A stretch of DNA of 64,000 nt from Methanolobus psychrotolerans (GTDB lineage: Archaea > Halobacteriota > Methanosarcinia > Methanosarcinales > Methanosarcinaceae). The translations under genes were made by a program, and so were the position numbers. Location: assembly GCF_002243045.1 (NCBI RefSeq), contig NZ_MBKP01000027.1, forward strand, positions 1 through 64,000, in the 5' to 3' direction. The number at the start of each line of letters is the position of its first letter. Position 1 is the first letter of the stretch. Under the pieces are notes generated by a model. It did not search any database, was not told where the DNA came from, and saw only the letters and a program-made list of their open reading frames with translations. Shown piece after piece: positions 5,806-63,696 of this stretch.

Positions 5806-8058
5806 TCAGGCCAATACGCACTCCTCGTCCACGAATACATAATATCCTTCGTACACGCTCATGCTAAATACATCGGTACCTACCTGGTTACCATTGATGA
5901 CACCTTCCACACCGTTGTAGCCCACATAGGCATACTCGTTTGCAGAGGTAACCCATGGTCCGGTTACCTTGATGTAGCTGTTGTCAATAGTTGAGAGACT
6001 AATCTCTGCAGATAGCTCGACCTTTGTATTGTGGCCAACAGCATTCCATCCCGGATAGAGTCTCAGCGATGGTGGTGTAGATGGCACCTTTGGTGTGAGG
6101 TAATCTTTGATTATAACTACCTCTTCGTCCAGATTGTTGTGCACCCAATATGCCTTCAATGGTTCGAAACTGGTTGGTACAACCATCATTCCGGTAGATG
6201 CATCGTCATAGAATACACTATCGATCTCTGTATCATCAAAGTCCTGAAGCACAGAGTCAATTGTTGCATCCTCAAGCGTCTCTGGGAATGAGATCAGATT
6301 CCAACCCGGCAGGAGTATTATTCCTTCGGGGTTGTACACTTCAACACACACTGTGTTGAATGCTGAATCTTTTCCATCGTCCAATGTAGCTTTTATCAGG
6401 TACTGTCCGTCAGGTACACCAGTTGTATCAAGCACGCCTGTCCAGCCATCTGAACCGTCATTATCTGTTGCAAACACAGTCCAGACATTGCCGACATCAT
6501 CGTCAATGCAGTTACTATTGGTATCTGCAAAGACAGCAAACGTTGCAGTATTGATATCATCCTGACCGGAATTATCTACAACTTCGACTATCTGTGTCTT
6601 TGAGACAACATCACCATCTGCATGGGAGACTATCTCCGGCTCTGGTACAACATTTGGTACTGTGGAAACTTCAACAGTTCCATCCGTGACCACAACTCCC
6701 GGAATTGCTGCATTAGCCTGGTCCTGGAGAACCACGTTCATCAGGTCAAGGTCGTAGACACCGTCTGCTGCACCTGCCTTCACTTCAAACTCAATGGTTA
6801 ACATTGCTCCGGCCTTTGGTGTGTAGACCCCACCTGTGGCTGCAATACCATACGATATGGTACCTGCACCATTGTCACCACTTCCAGGTGCCACTAGTGC
6901 TCCAGCTCCAAGCAAGTTCTCATCATTTATGTCGGTCACCATAAGTACTGCAGGATCATAGCCAAGCAGTAGACTCACAGCACGCAGGTTCTTGTCGGCT
7001 GAATCGACCATCACTTCAACCTGGAATGTCTCACCGATATCGACTGGTCCGCTTGCATTTGGAGATACCATTACCTCCGGCATTACAACAGGACCGTCAG
7101 CTACCTGTACAGTAGCATCAGTGACAACAACTCCGGCGATTGCCGTGTTGGTCTCGTCCATAAGTCCCACATTGTCCAGAACAAGGTTGTAGATGCCATT
7201 TGCAGCACCTGCCTTCACTTCGAATTCGATGGTCAGCATAGTACCGGCTTGCGGCGTGTAAGCTCCTGCGGTGGAGGCAATACCATATATAATGGTACCT
7301 GCACCGTCGTCACCACTGCCTGGCGCTTCCAGTGCTCCTGCTCCAAGCAGGTTCTCGTTGGTCACACTGTTCACCATGAGAACTGCAGCATCGTATTTCA
7401 GCTGCAGGTTCACAGCACGAAGGGCCTCATCAGCGGAATCCACATCAACCATTACCTGGAATGTGGCTCCCGGAGCAACCGGACCGCTCATTGCAGGAGT
7501 GATCTTCACTGTCGGATCAGCGGGCACTGGTGGTAATACATCATCACCAATTTTCACCGTTGCATCCATGATAGCTACTCCGGCAATAGCCGTGCTGGTC
7601 TCGTCTAAGAGTATCACATTCATCAGGTCAAGGTCATAGATACCATCAGCAGCTCCCGCTTTCACTTCAAAATTAATAGTGATCATGCTACCGGCTACTG
7701 GTGCATATGGACCGGATGTGGCTGCAATACCATAGGTAATGGTTCCTGCTCCATCATCCCCACTTCCCGGTGCTTCCAGTGCTCCTGCTCCAAGCAGGTT
7801 GTTGTTGGTTATACTATTGACCTGGAGAACTGCCGGATCATAGTCCAGCTGCAGGTTCATGGCACGTAGGTCAGACGCATCGGAATCCGCCAATATACTG
7901 ACCTGGAACGTATCACCTGCATCGTACTCATTGGTTTGTGGATCTACTGACACCGATGGTGCAGCCGCTGCAAGTCCTACGCCTACCATGAAACATGCAC
8001 AAAATATTAAAAGGATGGCAGCAGATCCCGCCATTCCTTTCCATGTTATTTTTGTCAT
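5806..8058 (-). CDS. Three-cohesin secreted scaffold-like protein
   Basis: 750 residues from ATG 8058, fixed by GAGGTGAAATC directly upstream; the longer frame to 8103 would overlap the previous gene. There is a signal peptide (AAILLIFCACFMVGVGLAAAAP). Three cohesin-type modules follow (about residues 33-175, 180-325 and 330-470), each with an opening VSPxxxxVxxGxTFQVxVxxDSAD, LRAxxLxLxYDPAVL and the signature GAGALEAPGSGDDGAG. A region with PEIVSHADGDVVSKTQ and a C-terminal pair of GWNLISF / GWNAVGH modules follows. No C-terminal membrane helix or sorting tail is visible. Cohesins bind dockerins, and the next gene upstream (22 bp away) ends in a dockerin, so the two proteins probably form a surface complex. 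Archaeal cohesin/dockerin proteins are known outside cellulosomes. Confidence 0.88.
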   Translation of the reverse strand: MTKITWKGMAGSAAILLIFCACFMVGVGLAAAAPSVSVDPQTNEYDAGDTFQVSILADSDASDLRAMNLQLDYDPAVLQVNSITNNNLLGAGALEAPGSGDDGAGTITYGIAATSGPYAPVAGSMITINFEVKAGAADGIYDLDLMNVILLDETSTAIAGVAIMDATVKIGDDVLPPVPADPTVKITPAMSGPVAPGATFQVMVDVDSADEALRAVNLQLKYDAAVLMVNSVTNENLLGAGALEAPGSGDDGAGTIIYGIASTAGAYTPQAGTMLTIEFEVKAGAANGIYNLVLDNVGLMDETNTAIAGVVVTDATVQVADGPVVMPEVMVSPNASGPVDIGETFQVEVMVDSADKNLRAVSLLLGYDPAVLMVTDINDENLLGAGALVAPGSGDNGAGTISYGIAATGGVYTPKAGAMLTIEFEVKAGAADGVYDLDLMNVVLQDQANAAIPGVVVTDGTVEVSTVPNVVPEPEIVSHADGDVVSKTQIVEVVDNSGQDDINTATFAVFADTNSNCIDDDVGNVWTVFATDNDGSDGWTGVLDTTGVPDGQYLIKATLDDGKDSAFNTVCVEVYNPEGIILLPGWNLISFPETLEDATIDSVLQDFDDTEIDSVFYDDASTGMMVVPTSFEPLKAYWVHNNLDEEVVIIKDYLTPKVPSTPPSLRLYPGWNAVGHNTKVELSAEISLSTIDNSYIKVTGPWVTSANEYAYVGYNGVEGVINGNQVGTDVFSMSVYEGYYVFVDEECVLA

Positions 8059-8080
8059 GATTTCACCTCTTACATCAGGC

Positions 8081-11000
8081 TTAAGACTGATATACTCCTG
8101 CAAACTCTACAAAGTCAAAGAAGTCTATTGCGCCATCATCATTGAAGTCGAAGATTGCATTGTAGTTGCTGTCACCCATTACTGAGTTGTAGCAAGCTGC
8201 AAATTCAACGAAGTCAAAGAAGTTGACAACTTCATCACCGTTGTAGTCACCCTTTGTCTCATCAACAACTGGTGGTTCATTGTTGCCAGCAGGTACTCCG
8301 CCATTCATGTACAGTCCTGTACCGTCCATTGGGTTGTGCGTGAACATGAGCCTCTGGTATCCGCATTCGGTTTCCAGATCAATGCCATCACACAGTACAG
8401 AGTTCGGTGCAAGGAACGAACTGGTCAGCAGATAGTCACCTGCTCCGCCTGCATTTGGTACATCCGGATAGACAAACTCCTTGTAGAAGTCTGGCATTGT
8501 CCTTATGTGCAGCCATACCCAGCTCTGAACTGGTGCTACAGAGTTGGATGATGCAGTGTTGTATGTACCTTCGCAAAGGATCTCCAGCAAGTTGGTGTGG
8601 AACCTTTCTTCAATGTCCTTACCAGTGAAGTATACCTCAAGGGCCGGGACAGTGAACATACGCTCTGCAATTGTATCCCATGAGCTGCTTATGTACCTGT
8701 CCTGATACCACAGCAGATCATTGAATCCTGGTGTTCCTACTCCGTCAGCAAGTATCTGACCGTAGTAGCAGGTCGTAGTCTCATCTGGCACGGAGTGTGG
8801 CACATCGATGTCATCGATCATGATGTACTCGCGGTTGAATGGTGGCAGTACAGGAACGATCTCATAGTTATCGACCATCTTCTTAACGACTGAGAGGTCG
8901 TTCAGTGCAACATCCTGGTGTTCTGGTATCGGGTTCCTGATGGTAATGTACTTGACATTGTCATCCTCGCTACCAAAGATAGCTGCAACGTCATACTCGG
9001 CACCGTCAACGAAGAATGTCTCACCTGTGTGGAGCAGACGTCCGACGCGTACAAGGGCCTTTCCATTGTTCGGGTTGACACCTTCGGTCCTCATGTACCA
9101 TGGTTCATAGAACTGTGGAGCAGCATCTTCGGTGACTGTGTGACGTCCGGAACTCAGGATCTCATTGCCTACACCAAGAACGTGCAGACCACCGATCTGT
9201 CCAGGGTTGGTGTTACCATTGTAGTAAACCTTTACTGCAACTGAATCCGGCTGACCGTTCTTGTAGTATATGTCCTCGATCTCTACAATGTGATCAAGGA
9301 ACTGCAGCCTGTCTCCTATGTTAATTGAGAAGAGCTCAGATGCAATGGATATGTCTTTCAGTCCGTCTCCACCTGGATACATCTCATCAGCGAAGTCTCC
9401 TACATCCATAAGATAGACAATATTGTCATTGCCATCACCGTTGATATCGAAACTGTCAAGACCTGTCTGGCCAAGGCGGTCTGCGACTGGGAAGTAGAAG
9501 TAGGTCCAGTATGCTCCGGTTGGGCTGATTGCCGTACCTTCTGTTGGCTGGTAGTGCTTGTCTATGAACATGTAGGTAAATTCATTGACAACATCTTCCC
9601 AGACGTACTTATTAGGCTCGTCGATCCATACACGGCCTGTCGGCTCAACGTACTCAGGTACGAACCACTGCCTGAAGAAGACCTTCTGCCAGGAGTCCCT
9701 GTTGTCCACAACTATACCTGCCTTTATCTTTGCAGGGTTGATGGTGACAAAGTCCTTAATTGGTGCTTCAGGGCTCATCGGGTCAAATGGTCCTTCCGGA
9801 TCAGTATATGGGAATGCTGCGCTGTAACCGTTCTCACCGTATATCCTCAGTCCGTTGGTGGTCTCGTCGATCTCATTGATATAGAGGTCAGTGAAACCTT
9901 CGACCTGGTCATATACAAACATCACTCTCTGTGGAAGAACTACGTCCCTTGGTGTCTCACAGACATCAGAGTTTGGTGCTCTCCATGAGCTGGTGAAGAG
10001 GAAGTCTCCGTACCTGTCATCTGCATCAGGCAGTTCAGGATATACGAATTCCTTGTAGAAATCAGGCATTGTCCTGATGTGCAGCCACTTCCATGCTTCG
10101 ATCTCGTCCTCGTCAAGGATCTCCAGCAGGTTGGTGTGGAGCCTTGGCTCTTCTGTCTTGTCAATGAAGTAGATAAGCAGTGGGTCTACATCATAGATCT
10201 TCCGCTCCTCAATGGTATCATAATAAGAATCAATATACATAGATTCATACCATTCGCCATCCGGCGCGTTCTTGTTAAGCAGGTCGCCATAGTAGCAGGT
10301 TGTGCCTTCCGCTCCCAGTGTGTGCATAATGTTGATATCATCGATCATGGTGTGTACCATGTTGAGTGGTGGCAACATAGGGATGTATTCGCCGTTATCA
10401 ACCATCTTCTTAACGACTGAAAGATCGTTCAGTGAAACGTCCTGGTGTTCTGGTACAGGGTTTCTGATGGTTATGTACTTGACATTGTACTTTTCAGAAC
10501 CGTATATCCTTGCAACATCATATTCAGCACCGTCTACGAAGAATGTCTCTCTTTCATAGATCTGACGTCCGACGCGTACAAGGACCTTGTCCATGCCTGC
10601 GGCAGCTCCCTCTACCTTAAGATACCATGGTTCGTAGAACTGTGGATAATCGTCTGTTACTGTGTGACGTCCGGAACTGAGAATACCGTCATCAACCTCG
10701 ATGACATGTATACCGCCTATCTGTTCAGGGTTAGTGTTACCGTTGTAGAAGATCTTCACAGCTACGGAATCAAGCTTGCCGCCGACGTAATAGATTCCCT
10801 CGACCTCTACTATGTGGTCAAGGAACTGTAGCCTGTCACCGATATTGACGGCGAACAGCTCGGAACTGATGCTTATATCCTTGTGACCGTCCCTGTTAAA
10901 ATCACCAACCCTCCTGAGGGTTACCATATCATCCTTGCCGTCATCATTGATGTCAAAACTGTCAAGACCTATCTGGGCATCATCACGGTCTGCGACAGGG

Positions 11001-16284: not shown

Positions 16285-16333
<49 letters not shown>

Positions 16334-58898: not shown

Positions 58899-59411
58899 CT
58901 AATATTTTATGATGCATCCCCCTTCTGTGCCCATTTTTTCAAAATACTGCTGGTGGTATTCCTCTGCACGGTAAAAAGGTCCGACAGGTTGTATCTGGGT
59001 TACAATCTCCCGAGAATATCTTCCGGATTTTTCCAGATTGATCCTGGAAGCTATAGCAGCATTGCGCTGCTCAGCATTATGATAGAATATGGCAGAACGA
59101 TATTGTGTTCCTATATCCGGTCCCTGTCTGTTCAGGGTTGTAGGATCGTGCAGTTCCCAGAAAAGCTCCAGTAATTTATCGTAAGATACAGCTGCAGGAT
59201 TGAAAACAACTTCCACAGCTTCCGCATGCCCGGTAGTACCCGTGCATACTTCCTTATATGTCGGATTTTCCTTTGCTCCTCCGGTATAGCCTACCTGGGT
59301 AAAGTCCACACCTTTTACCTTTCTAAAAACGGATTCCACTCCCCAGAAGCAACCTGCTGCAAAAGTTGCTATTTCATAGCCTTTCTTAAGTAACTCTTCT
59401 CTTGACCCCAT
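58899..59411 (-). CDS. msrA: Peptide-methionine (S)-S-oxide reductase
   Basis: 170 residues. Repairs oxidised methionine. Motif [14 protein letters not shown] with nucleophile Cys21, then [19 protein letters not shown] and [22 protein letters not shown] before the ATG at 59411 is a strong ribosome binding site, and it is the first unit of a 13-bp minisatellite at 59417-59626. An oxidative-stress gene in an obligate anaerobe. No msrB in the window. Confidence 0.95.
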
Positions 59412-59416
59412 CTGAT

Positions 59417-59626
59417 CACCTACAATAATTATCTACAATGATTATCTATAATCATCATCTATAATAATCACCTACAATAATCATCTATAATAATCACCTA
59501 CAATAATCATCTATAATAATCACCTACAATAATCACCTACAATAATCACCTACAATAATCACCTACAATAATCACCTACAATAATCATCTATAATAATCA
59601 TCTATAATAAATAATCACCTATAAAC
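59417..59626. repeat. 13-bp minisatellite upstream of msrA
   Basis: Fifteen 13-bp units in tandem. Two variants alternate: CACCTACAATAAT and CATCTATAATAAT. Pure runs of the first occur at 59521-59585; the last unit has a 4-base insertion. Read on the minus (msrA) strand each unit gives ATTATTGTAGGTG or ATTATTATAGATG, i.e. a Shine-Dalgarno-like GTAGGTG or a TATA-like ATTATTATAG. The unit nearest msrA contains the real ribosome binding site. Confidence 0.95.
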
Positions 59627-59661
59627 AAAAATAGTAAAGAAATTAAGGCGAATCTATCGCC

Positions 59662-60318
59662 TTACTTTCTCTTGAAGATGAACGCCAGTCCGATTATTGC
59701 AGCCATTGGCAAAGCAATTGTCGGGAACTCCGGGATTTCCTCGGATGCTGGAGGGACATCTGCTGTGACCTTTATGTCAAGGAAGCTTGCAGTACCACGA
59801 TCTCTTCCACGCACCGCAATAAGGTTTGTGCCGGAGTTAAGGACACTGTCATCGACCGAAAACTCAAAGCTATTCCAGCTTGGGCATCCCTCGTGTGTTT
59901 TCATTCCACTGGAAACATCCTGTCCGTTAATGAATACCTGAACATCGTTATCGATAGCAATGTAAACCTTCAGGTTGCTTGTGCCTTCCGGAAGATAGAA
60001 CTCTTTTCTTACAAGTATGTCTGAGTTCAATGCCCAGCTTGTCTTAACGTACTCGGAACTTGTGAGAAGACAACCGGAGTAAATTGAACCAAAACCGGCA
60101 TCACCTGTCAAAAAGTTGGAGTCATCAAAGCCTGTACTTTCAAAACCGGCATTCAAGCCTGTGCTTACAACCTGATATTTGTACCCTGAATCACCATAAG
60201 GGATTACTGTTGTGCTGCCTGAATCAGCAAGTGCTGTCATTGACATTGTTGCTGTCAGCAAAAAAATGCTTGCCAGAGATAGGGCAAGAAGTCTACTCAT
60301 ATTAAATTTCGTTTTCAT
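59662..60318 (-). CDS. PEF-CTERM secreted protein with galactose-binding-like domain
   Basis: 218 residues. Signal peptide (LLALSLASIFLLTATMSMTALA). The body (about 35-185) is beta-rich, with VRKEFYLPEGTSNLKVYIA, VQVFINGQDVSS and VLNSGTNLIAVRGRDRGTAS, resembling galactose-binding-like domains of surface proteins. C-terminal PEF-CTERM: EEIPEFPTIALPMAAIIGLA then FIFKRK. It is the second PEF-CTERM protein of the window. The promoter, CATATTTATAG on the minus strand at about 60437-60447, implies a leader of roughly 95 nt. Confidence 0.85.
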   Translation of the reverse strand: MKTKFNMSRLLALSLASIFLLTATMSMTALADSGSTTVIPYGDSGYKYQVVSTGLNAGFESTGFDDSNFLTGDAGFGSIYSGCLLTSSEYVKTSWALNSDILVRKEFYLPEGTSNLKVYIAIDNDVQVFINGQDVSSGMKTHEGCPSWNSFEFSVDDSVLNSGTNLIAVRGRDRGTASFLDIKVTADVPPASEEIPEFPTIALPMAAIIGLAFIFKRK

Positions 60319-60667: not shown

Positions 60668-61789
60668 TTATATTCCTATTAAGTTCTGCCCTTGAAGGGC
60701 GAATTTCTTAATGTTGATAGAGGCATTTATGTCCCTATCATGATTGGCATTACATTCCGGGCATTTCCATTTTCTGTCTGCTAATGTCATGGAACTGTTG
60801 TAGTAACCACAGACGTTGCAGATTTTTGTACTTGGCTCGAATCTTCCGATGCGGAGAATTGTTTTTCCGTACCATTCTGCCTTATATTCGAGTTTTGTTA
60901 TGAAGGAACTCCACGATGCATCAGCTATGTGTTGAGCCAGACAATGATTTTTAAACATACCGGAGACATTGAGGGTTTCTACTGCTATGGCTTGGTTCTC
61001 GCTAACGAGCTTTGTTGAAACCTTATGTTGGAAATCGTGTCTCTGATTGCTTATTTTTTCATGGAGCTTGGCTACTTGTTGACGAGCTTTATTTCTGTTC
61101 TTTGAGCCTTTCTGTTTTCGAGATAGGCGTTTTGAAAGAACTTTAAGTCTCTTCATGGAGTTTTTAAGGTGTCTCGGATTGTCGATTTTATCACCATTAG
61201 AAGTGATAGCAAAATCCTTGATACCTACATCTACTCCTACGGTATCGTTTACGGAGAAATCCGATTTTTCTGGAAATTCCCGATTGTCGTCTACAAGGAT
61301 ACTAATGTAATATTTTCCTGAAGATGTACGGGATACTGTAGCTGTTTTTAAGTCACCGTCACCTAATGGACGATGGAGAATAGTTTTAACGTTGCCTATT
61401 TTCGGAAGGTATATGCGGTTATTTTCAATATCAACCTTGTAATTCTGAGGAACATTGTACGCCTGTACTGGATTCTTCCGTGACTTGAATTTTGGGAATC
61501 CCATCTTTTCCCGAAAAAATTTTGTAAAGGCATTGTCGAGATTGAGGGTAGCACCTTGTAATGACTGAGAGTTAACCTCTTTGAGCCAATCGTGCTTTCC
61601 GTCTCTTTTCAACATTGTTATTCCTTTATTCAGGTCGAATCTTGATACAGATTTACCGTCTTGTTCGTAGATCTTAATTTTTTGTTCTAAAGCCCAATTA
61701 TAGATGAATCTACAAGCTCCGAAATGCTGAAAAAACATTTCTTCCTGCTCTTTTGTAGGATACATTCTATATTTGTAAGCCTTCAACAT
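60668..61789 (-). CDS. tnpB: TnpB RNA-guided nuclease of the IS605 element
   Basis: 373 residues, apparently full-length. N-terminal OrfB helix-turn-helix (MLKAYKYRMYPTKEQEEMFFQHFG), RuvC-like catalytic acids in TVGVDVGIKDFAIT, AIAVETLNVSG and CNANHDRDINASINIKK, and the zinc finger CNVCGYYNSS ... KCPECNANHD. TnpB is the ancestor of Cas12 and cleaves DNA with the element's omega RNA. There is no frameshift. ATG 61789; tnpA starts 55 bp away on the other strand. Confidence 0.95.
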   Translation of the reverse strand: MLKAYKYRMYPTKEQEEMFFQHFGACRFIYNWALEQKIKIYEQDGKSVSRFDLNKGITMLKRDGKHDWLKEVNSQSLQGATLNLDNAFTKFFREKMGFPKFKSRKNPVQAYNVPQNYKVDIENNRIYLPKIGNVKTILHRPLGDGDLKTATVSRTSSGKYYISILVDDNREFPEKSDFSVNDTVGVDVGIKDFAITSNGDKIDNPRHLKNSMKRLKVLSKRLSRKQKGSKNRNKARQQVAKLHEKISNQRHDFQHKVSTKLVSENQAIAVETLNVSGMFKNHCLAQHIADASWSSFITKLEYKAEWYGKTILRIGRFEPSTKICNVCGYYNSSMTLADRKWKCPECNANHDRDINASINIKKFALQGQNLIGI

Positions 61790-61844: not shown

Positions 61845-62441
61845 GTGGAGTATGAAAGGAAAAACCATAGTAAGTTTTTATTATTATACCATGTCATTTT
61901 TGTCTGCAAATATAGACGGAATGTGTTGAATGGTATTGAAAATGAGTTGTAACTATTCAGCCTACAGCAATCAGCCGATTGATACTGATTCAATAAGAAT
62001 AAAGATGTTTAGTCCTAAATAAATTTGAAACAAAAAACGCAATCATAGACACAATTAGAATAAATTATTCTCAAGAAAATCACGTATCAATTTTTTATCA
62101 AATAGGTTATTGATAACGATTTTATCAGGCTGAATAGTTACAATGAGTTAAAGGATTCATTGTTAAAAATCGCTACAAAATCTAATTTTGAAATTGTGGA
62201 AATGGAGACAGACAAAGACCATGTCCATTTACTCATTAAGAGTGAGCCGAAATATAGTATTCTTTCGATTATCAGACGATTGAAACAAGAATCGACATAT
62301 CGTTTATGGGAACAAAATGAATTACATTTGAGACAATATTATTGGGGAGAACGTACTTTATGGAGCGATAGATATTTTTGTAGCACTATTGGAAACGTTA
62401 GCAAAGAAACGGTAATAGAATACATAAGGAATCAGGGGTAA
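61845..62441 (+). pseudogene. tnpA: IS200-family transposase tnpA, split by a 193-bp MITE
   Basis: The 5' fragment starts at GTG 61845 (VEYERKNHSKFLLLYHVIFV then CKYRRNVLNGIENEL). It is interrupted at 61949. The 3' fragment resumes at 62142 (NELKDSLLKIATKSNF ... DKDHVHLLIKSEPKYSI ... RRLKQESTYRLW). Joining 61948 to 62150, i.e. removing the MITE and one 8-bp duplicate, gives an uninterrupted frame of about 131 codons ending at TAA 62441. The HUH motif (DHVHLLI), the catalytic Tyr region (YFCSTIGNV) and the KYRR start are all present, so the gene was intact before insertion. Confidence 0.9.
61949..62141. mobile_element. 193-bp MITE inserted in tnpA
   Basis: Perfect 15-bp terminal inverted repeats: GTAACTATTCAGCCT at 61949-61963 and AGGCTGAATAGTTAC at 62127-62141. 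Flanked by 8-bp direct repeats AATGAGTT at 61941-61948 and 62142-62149. No coding capacity. Ends starting with GTAA and an 8-bp target duplication are the hallmark of IS66-family elements, so this is probably a non-autonomous IS66-type derivative; the autonomous partner is not in the window. Confidence 0.9.
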
Positions 62442-63160: not shown

Positions 63161-63199
63161 CATGCATATTGATCATGCATATTGATCATGCATATTGAT
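63161..63199. repeat. Three perfect 13-bp direct repeats at a stop codon
   Basis: CATGCATATTGAT at 63161-63173, 63174-63186 and 63187-63199, perfect tandem copies whose last base is the final base of the TGA stop of the gene at 63199-63696. Same period (13 bp) as the msrA minisatellite but a different sequence; contains TGCATA-type palindromes (ATGCAT). Confidence 0.95.
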
Positions 63200-63696
63200 C
63201 AGTACCTGTAGCAACCTGCTGTGCCATAGCCACTGCCACGCATCATACCACGTACATTCTGTGAATACTGTAGTCCTTTATATGAAGAACTTGCATAGAA
63301 GTCTTCTATGACATCGCCTGTGTATGCATCGATACGTCCCTGCTTGATAACATCTTCATCATCTGTGTAGTTAAAGACCCACCACTTACCCATGAGGTAT
63401 ATATTTGATTCCCCGATGTCCTTACCAGTTGCATCTTCTGCGAGCTTGATTGCCTCATCAATGGTCCCTACCTCAAGTCCAGCAACTGTTGTCCCATCCG
63501 ATGCATATGCTCCATAGACAGGGCAGTTTTCATACCCGTATCCACCGGAGTAACCCATTCTGTTAGCTGCCCATCTGTGCATCTGCCCGAAGAATGTTGC
63601 ATCATCTGCCCGGTCGACAGCTGCATTTACGATACCTATCCCTGCAATGGCTGTAATAAGCATACCAACAAGGAGTATTGACGTTGTTCTTTTCAT
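63199..63696 (-). CDS. Secreted PepSY-like protein
   Basis: 165 residues. Signal peptide (ILLVGMLITAIAGIGIVNAA). Gly/Tyr/Ser-rich segments (GYSGGYGYENCPVYGAYAS and GSGYGTAGCYRY) flank a central PepSY-like fold (TIDEAIKLAEDATGKDIGES, IYLMGKWWVFNYTDDEDVIK, GRIDAYTGDVIEDF). Two cysteines may bridge. GGAAGGTGA before the ATG. A related gene set (ArsR-type regulator, membrane coiled coil) lies just downstream. Confidence 0.75.
   Translation of the reverse strand: MKRTTSILLVGMLITAIAGIGIVNAAVDRADDATFFGQMHRWAANRMGYSGGYGYENCPVYGAYASDGTTVAGLEVGTIDEAIKLAEDATGKDIGESNIYLMGKWWVFNYTDDEDVIKQGRIDAYTGDVIEDFYASSSYKGLQYSQNVRGMMRGSGYGTAGCYRY

Follow-up and report, generated by a model that had tools for sequence, protein, structure and literature searches.

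A 13-bp minisatellite ending in the Shine-Dalgarno sequence of an archaeal msrA gene, probably a by-product of genome rearrangement

Tandem repeats in the leader of a gene have been described for uspA2 of Moraxella catarrhalis, where AGAT repeats are present in the 5' UTR in 6-23 copies and expression depends on the copy number, according to PMC4679880. In the archaeon Methanolobus psychrotolerans we found an array of 13-bp units directly in front of msrA that resembles the uspA2 repeats in being placed between promoter and start codon and outside the reading frame, and both are candidates for expression that depends on copy number. For uspA2, both a varying copy number and an effect on expression are described, whereas the msrA array is known from the sequence of a single genome. 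It further differs from the AGAT repeats in its 13-bp unit, which contains the Shine-Dalgarno (SD) sequence itself, and in belonging to the gene of an archaeal repair enzyme. The TAACTGA repeats of marine Beggiatoaceae (PMC4679880) are likewise short direct repeats located few nucleotides before a start codon; they are found at numerous loci and for the most part are not SD-like, whereas the msrA array is found at one locus and its units are good SD sequences. Intergenic minisatellites of Methanosarcinia resemble the msrA array in their non-coding head-to-tail units of 11-18 bp, some of them with GGTGAT, but the simple head-to-tail arrays examined were not placed as ribosome sites, and only the msrA array abuts a start codon.

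A survey of this class showed GGTGAT-bearing arrays in 34 of 237 genomes, while a control with the reversed motif was non-zero in 31 genomes (hand count), and the idea that SD-like arrays are enriched in this class was therefore rejected. At 35 loci examined, the simple head-to-tail arrays were either intergenic without an adjacent start or located inside genes, and four or five imperfect arrays ended at a start codon. Survey and loci together indicated no general selection of SD-like minisatellites for use as ribosome sites. One intergenic array from another genus of the same family (G171:C25:253685-253840, locus L195) carried 11 GGTGAT copies at a spacing of 15 bp (GGTGATCCTTTAAAT).

The window, i.e. 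the whole stretch of DNA that was analysed, comprises positions 1 to 64,000 of contig NZ_MBKP01000027.1 (64,000 nt). The features relevant to the msrA locus are listed here in window coordinates.

58899 to 59411, minus strand: msrA, encoding peptide methionine sulfoxide reductase A, 170 aa (PF01625, E 1.7e-66)
59414 to 59421, minus strand: SD sequence of msrA, AGGTGATC, formed with the proximal array unit and one further base (16S complementarity)
59415 to 59609, minus strand: 13-bp tandem array of 15 units (Tandem Repeats Finder, TRF, and unit decomposition)
59614 to 59623, minus strand: distal degenerate copy TATAGGTGAT, identical to the msrA SD segment in close congeners, TATAGGTGATGAG-ATG
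59647 to 59661, minus strand: terminator-like hairpin GGCGA-TAGAT-TCGCC directly 3' of the PEF-CTERM gene, with a T-rich tract behind it
59662 to 60318, minus strand: gene of a PEF-CTERM-type secreted protein (C-terminus EIPEFPTIALPMAAIIGLAFIFKRK), the new upstream neighbour of msrA
60668 to 61789, minus strand: IS605 OrfB/TnpB-like transposase gene in the joined block (PF01385, E 3.7e-31)
62160 to 62441, plus strand: IS200-type TnpA ORF, starting part-way into the profile (positions 34-121; PF01797, E 3.1e-27)

TRF detected one tandem array at 59415-59610 with a period of 13 and 15.1 copies (score 273), and alternatively described the same span by a period of 26 and 7.5 copies (score 301). 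With 15 units of 13 bp placed head-to-tail, 89% matches and no indels, the array is a minisatellite, and it accounts for 195 of the 250 bases that separate the stop of the PEF-CTERM gene from the start of msrA on the minus strand. A first-pass annotation had already described 15 units of 13 bp before msrA, which TRF and unit decomposition confirmed; its coordinates of 59417-59626 were corrected to 59415-59609 plus the degenerate TATAGGTGAT copy. Read on the msrA strand, eight units are TATTGTAGGTGAT (unit A), five are TATTATAGATGAT (unit B) and two are degenerate. Their order from distal to proximal is B B A A A A A B A B A B, GATTATAGATAAT, CATTGTAGATAAT, A, and the final A unit is followed by CAG-ATG of msrA. 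The earlier description of every unit as containing either GTAGGTG or ATTATTATAG holds for 13 of the 15 units and fails for units 13 and 14, which have neither motif. No second site with the unit pattern was found in this genome, and none was found in 26 other genomes of the genus or in viral contigs. Within 559 kb of this genome surveyed by TRF, the array was by far the largest short-period array, and only an (AAT)16 microsatellite approached its copy number. The array is therefore not a chance occurrence. Judging from the unit order, the AAAAA run of identical units and the (AB)3 block indicate recent copy changes.

The msrA orthologs of congeners are 66-86% identical. The proposed role of the proximal unit as ribosome binding site of msrA was borne out, since this unit and one further base give AGGTGATC, with 8 bases complementary to GATCACCT of a congener's 16S rRNA (3' end GGATCACCTCCT). 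The congener served as reference for SD pairing, and no 16S gene was found in the draft genome itself. AGGTGATC ends 2 nt before the ATG, with a gap of 7 nt between GG and ATG, which is a proper distance for an SD, and its duplex with the 16S was computed at about -12.8 kcal/mol. The other A units contain AGGTGAT (computed at -10.2 kcal/mol with the 16S), and the B units are weak (-3.5). Decoy ribosome sites, which had also been postulated, exist on paper in the form of seven further A units and the distal copy, all predicted to be strong SD look-alikes. TTG-TAG start-stop pairs are found at the A-A junctions at good spacing from decoy SDs, and GTG or ATG uORFs of about 9 codons are found throughout the array.

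The gene order in congeners is aminotransferase, FAD-synthase-like, histidine kinase, msrA, DUF1638-like, acetyltransferase (kept in G004 and G024); the gene preceding msrA in the congeners examined is one that we take, from its sequence, to be DUF1638-like. In the present genome, which is a draft of 106 contigs, this ancestral block is split, with the left half in the window and the right half, including the DUF1638-like gene, on contig C74. The abandoned msrA promoter CGAAAGATTTATAGGG is still found behind the DUF1638-like gene on C74, with a score of 11.3 in the BRE/TATA model described below. C74 also keeps a decayed and disrupted stretch resembling the coding start of the hydrophobic N-terminal MsrA extension of congeners; after this stretch the contig ends with the reading frame of an IS200-type transposase. 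The PEF-CTERM gene, for which no Pfam match was obtained, has orthologs in congeners that are followed by genes other than msrA, and its usual downstream neighbour, encoding a 142-aa protein, is here located on contig C71. The gene retains its terminator hairpin up to the edge of the array, and five congeners have this hairpin, or a variant of it, downstream of the ortholog. Split synteny and retained hairpin therefore place the array exactly on the seam of two formerly separate segments. This position on a junction, as well as the displacement of msrA from its ancestral promoter, had been missed in the first-pass annotation.

In several congeners (loci L003, L005, L007, L017, L018, L020 and L024) the msrA frame is apparently extended upstream by a hydrophobic N-terminal segment, for example MQDVRTRHIFILFLLTFAYAGISCESPKIVSTSSIGDEM in L003, which is lost in the genome of the window. 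The extended frame suggests, from its predicted product, a membrane-anchored or exported MsrA in those congeners, and an internal SD could also yield a cytoplasmic MsrA.

Promoters were scored with a BRE/TATA model for which 234 upstream regions from this genome served as training set (consensus GAAAACATTTATATAT); it is crude, being seeded and hard-assigned, and its best match is not at the expected box in every congener. With this model the msrA promoter of several M. vulcani-like congeners scored 10.8-11.3, with AGAAACATTTATGGCT or AGAAACATTTATGACT. The msrA upstream region in the window scored 1.5 at most, below the median of 3.5 for shuffled sequence, and no match was found inside or beside the array. 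ATTATTATAG had been regarded as a TATA-like motif, a claim that failed with scores of 1.3-1.5 at best against the same median. A TATA-only TTTATAGG is present at 59618-59625 without a purine-rich BRE. For Methanolobus psychrophilus, 81.6% of the primary transcripts have a predicted BRE and TATA, and a length above 150 nt is found for 24% of the leaders (PMC5378194). By these figures a long msrA leader is not unusual, and it is the missing promoter that deserves attention.

We consider it probable that the array is a minisatellite that arose by tandem duplication of msrA's own SD segment at the rearrangement junction. The synteny in this draft assembly shows that a rearrangement separated msrA from the DUF1638-like gene just upstream of the msrA SD and placed it next to the 3' end of the PEF-CTERM gene. 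The SD segment (ATAGGTGAT and a few bases) may then have been multiplied to 15 units via slippage or unequal recombination; we infer this step from the sequence match and the homogeneity of the units, together with its direction and timing. The unit resembles the msrA SD segment conserved in congeners (TATAGGTGATGNG-ATG), which makes duplication of this segment the simplest source. As a counterpoint, the unit could derive from sequence already present on the PEF-CTERM side, as the match on the msrA side comprises 7-10 bases. If the SD segment was duplicated as we propose, the proximal unit alone would act as ribosome binding site and the other units would be part of the leader of a transcript reaching msrA, possibly from PEF-CTERM read-through or from a weak cryptic promoter, and the copy number of the array would probably drift. 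Assuming neutrality, the array would most likely have no effect on the amount of MsrA, or a small and graded one. The array is thus seen as probably a by-product of the rearrangement rather than an on/off switch. On this reading it is a clear snapshot of a control region being rebuilt after rearrangement, with the old promoter as a decaying fossil, a foreign terminator fused and the gap filled with SD copies.

The start of msrA was also found multiplied in two other congeners, G005 and G022 (loci L009 and L013), where three in-frame tandem copies of the start region are present (33 nt x 3). The distance from promoter to motif is 145 in these genomes versus 79, the excess of 66 corresponding to 2 x 33 nt, and the promoter is unchanged. 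The duplicated unit differs from the 13-bp unit, but the site is the same, and the site therefore appears prone to duplication. The triplication yields either an N-terminal extension made of repeats (..GDRMLSKGELPGDGTLSQENLLRDGVLLKEEL..) or a choice of several starts.

Alternatively, the array might be a contingency locus, in which the number of units tunes or switches MsrA via leader length, folding or decoy SDs. The homogeneous units would suit slippage, and the copy-dependent AGAT leader repeats of uspA2 (PMC4679880) are a precedent. Strong decoy SDs are present, some of them followed by TTG-TAG pairs or 9-codon uORFs, and the SD is predicted to be poorly accessible (0.06-0.34 at 37 C), to a degree that changes with unit number, although with no simple dependence on it. 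We nevertheless consider a contingency locus unlikely. The array is located 5' of the SD and does not extend into the ORF, the spacing between SD and AUG is fixed by the proximal unit, and steps of 13 bp alter only leader length and decoy number. Because such steps spare this spacing as well as the frame, no on/off switch is predicted. The array also lacks a promoter-like score, the folding of the leader is ordinary, with 26% of permuted units folding equally well, msrA encodes a housekeeping repair enzyme and not a surface antigen, and the array occurs in one species only. By analogy, a graded tuning as with the Moraxella uspA2 leader repeats is possible. Quite doubtful in our estimation is a rescue of msrA, after loss of its promoter, by amplified SD units forming an adjustable leader in which unit number sets the MsrA level. 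If true, this would be an archaeal rheostat made of SD units and set by their copy number. A limited literature search returned no matching case of tandem-repeat phase variation in archaea or methanogens and no methanogen case of a leader-repeat rheostat, which the array would be if copy number sets expression.

A DNA- or RNA-binding regulator might recognise the repeated motif as an operator array or as leader sites. The many identical sites in a single orientation directly at the start codon would fit such a regulator, and a post-transcriptional regulator was proposed for the TAACTGA repeats upstream of starts in Beggiatoaceae (PMC4679880). Regulator sites normally recur across a regulon, whereas this motif is found at a single locus, with no second array in the genome and none at msrA in congeners, and we regard this explanation as very unlikely. 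Even less credible is a functional RNA structure or a thermosensor whose pairing of UUAUU with GGUGA between units would mask the SD. Folding predicted a long GU/AU stem across the array, GGUGAUUAUU is self-complementary if G-U pairs are allowed, and the minimum free energy of -63.5 kcal/mol corresponds to a z-score of -7.5 against dinucleotide shuffles. This z-score reflects repetition, however, and was rejected as evidence of RNA structure after a control in which 26% of permuted-unit arrays folded equally well or better; the predicted structure is thus no evidence of function. SD accessibility showed no steady rise with temperature in all array lengths, and no Rfam match was found within the window. 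We also give very little credence to an assembly artefact, in which a contig misjoined through the repeat would falsely place msrA beside the PEF-CTERM gene. The fragmented draft and the IS200-type element at the end of C74 are compatible with a misjoin, but msrA did leave its old place, as the decayed promoter and leader remaining next to the DUF1638-like gene show, and the unit pattern at one genomic place only leaves no second array to misjoin through.

Several other repeats were observed. The perfect (AAT)16 microsatellite is intergenic at window positions 16285-16333 and, as a candidate for slippage, is preferable to the msrA array. Another 13-bp repeat, perfect as well (CATGCATATTGAT x 3.2 at 63161-63201), overlaps the stop of a 165-aa gene (63199-63696) and contains GATC and ATGCAT palindromes. 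At locus L159 (G000:C49:64001-80471), long arrays of direct repeats (unit length about 183 and 197 bp) are located at 7503-9148 and 9810-10984; they are built from AATCTGTGT-type sub-repeats and resemble 86-bp ATCTGCGTT arrays in L142 and L143. A 342-bp tandem repeat at the start of the window (positions 1-1553; 4.5 copies, 95% matches) probably codes for a repetitive surface protein.
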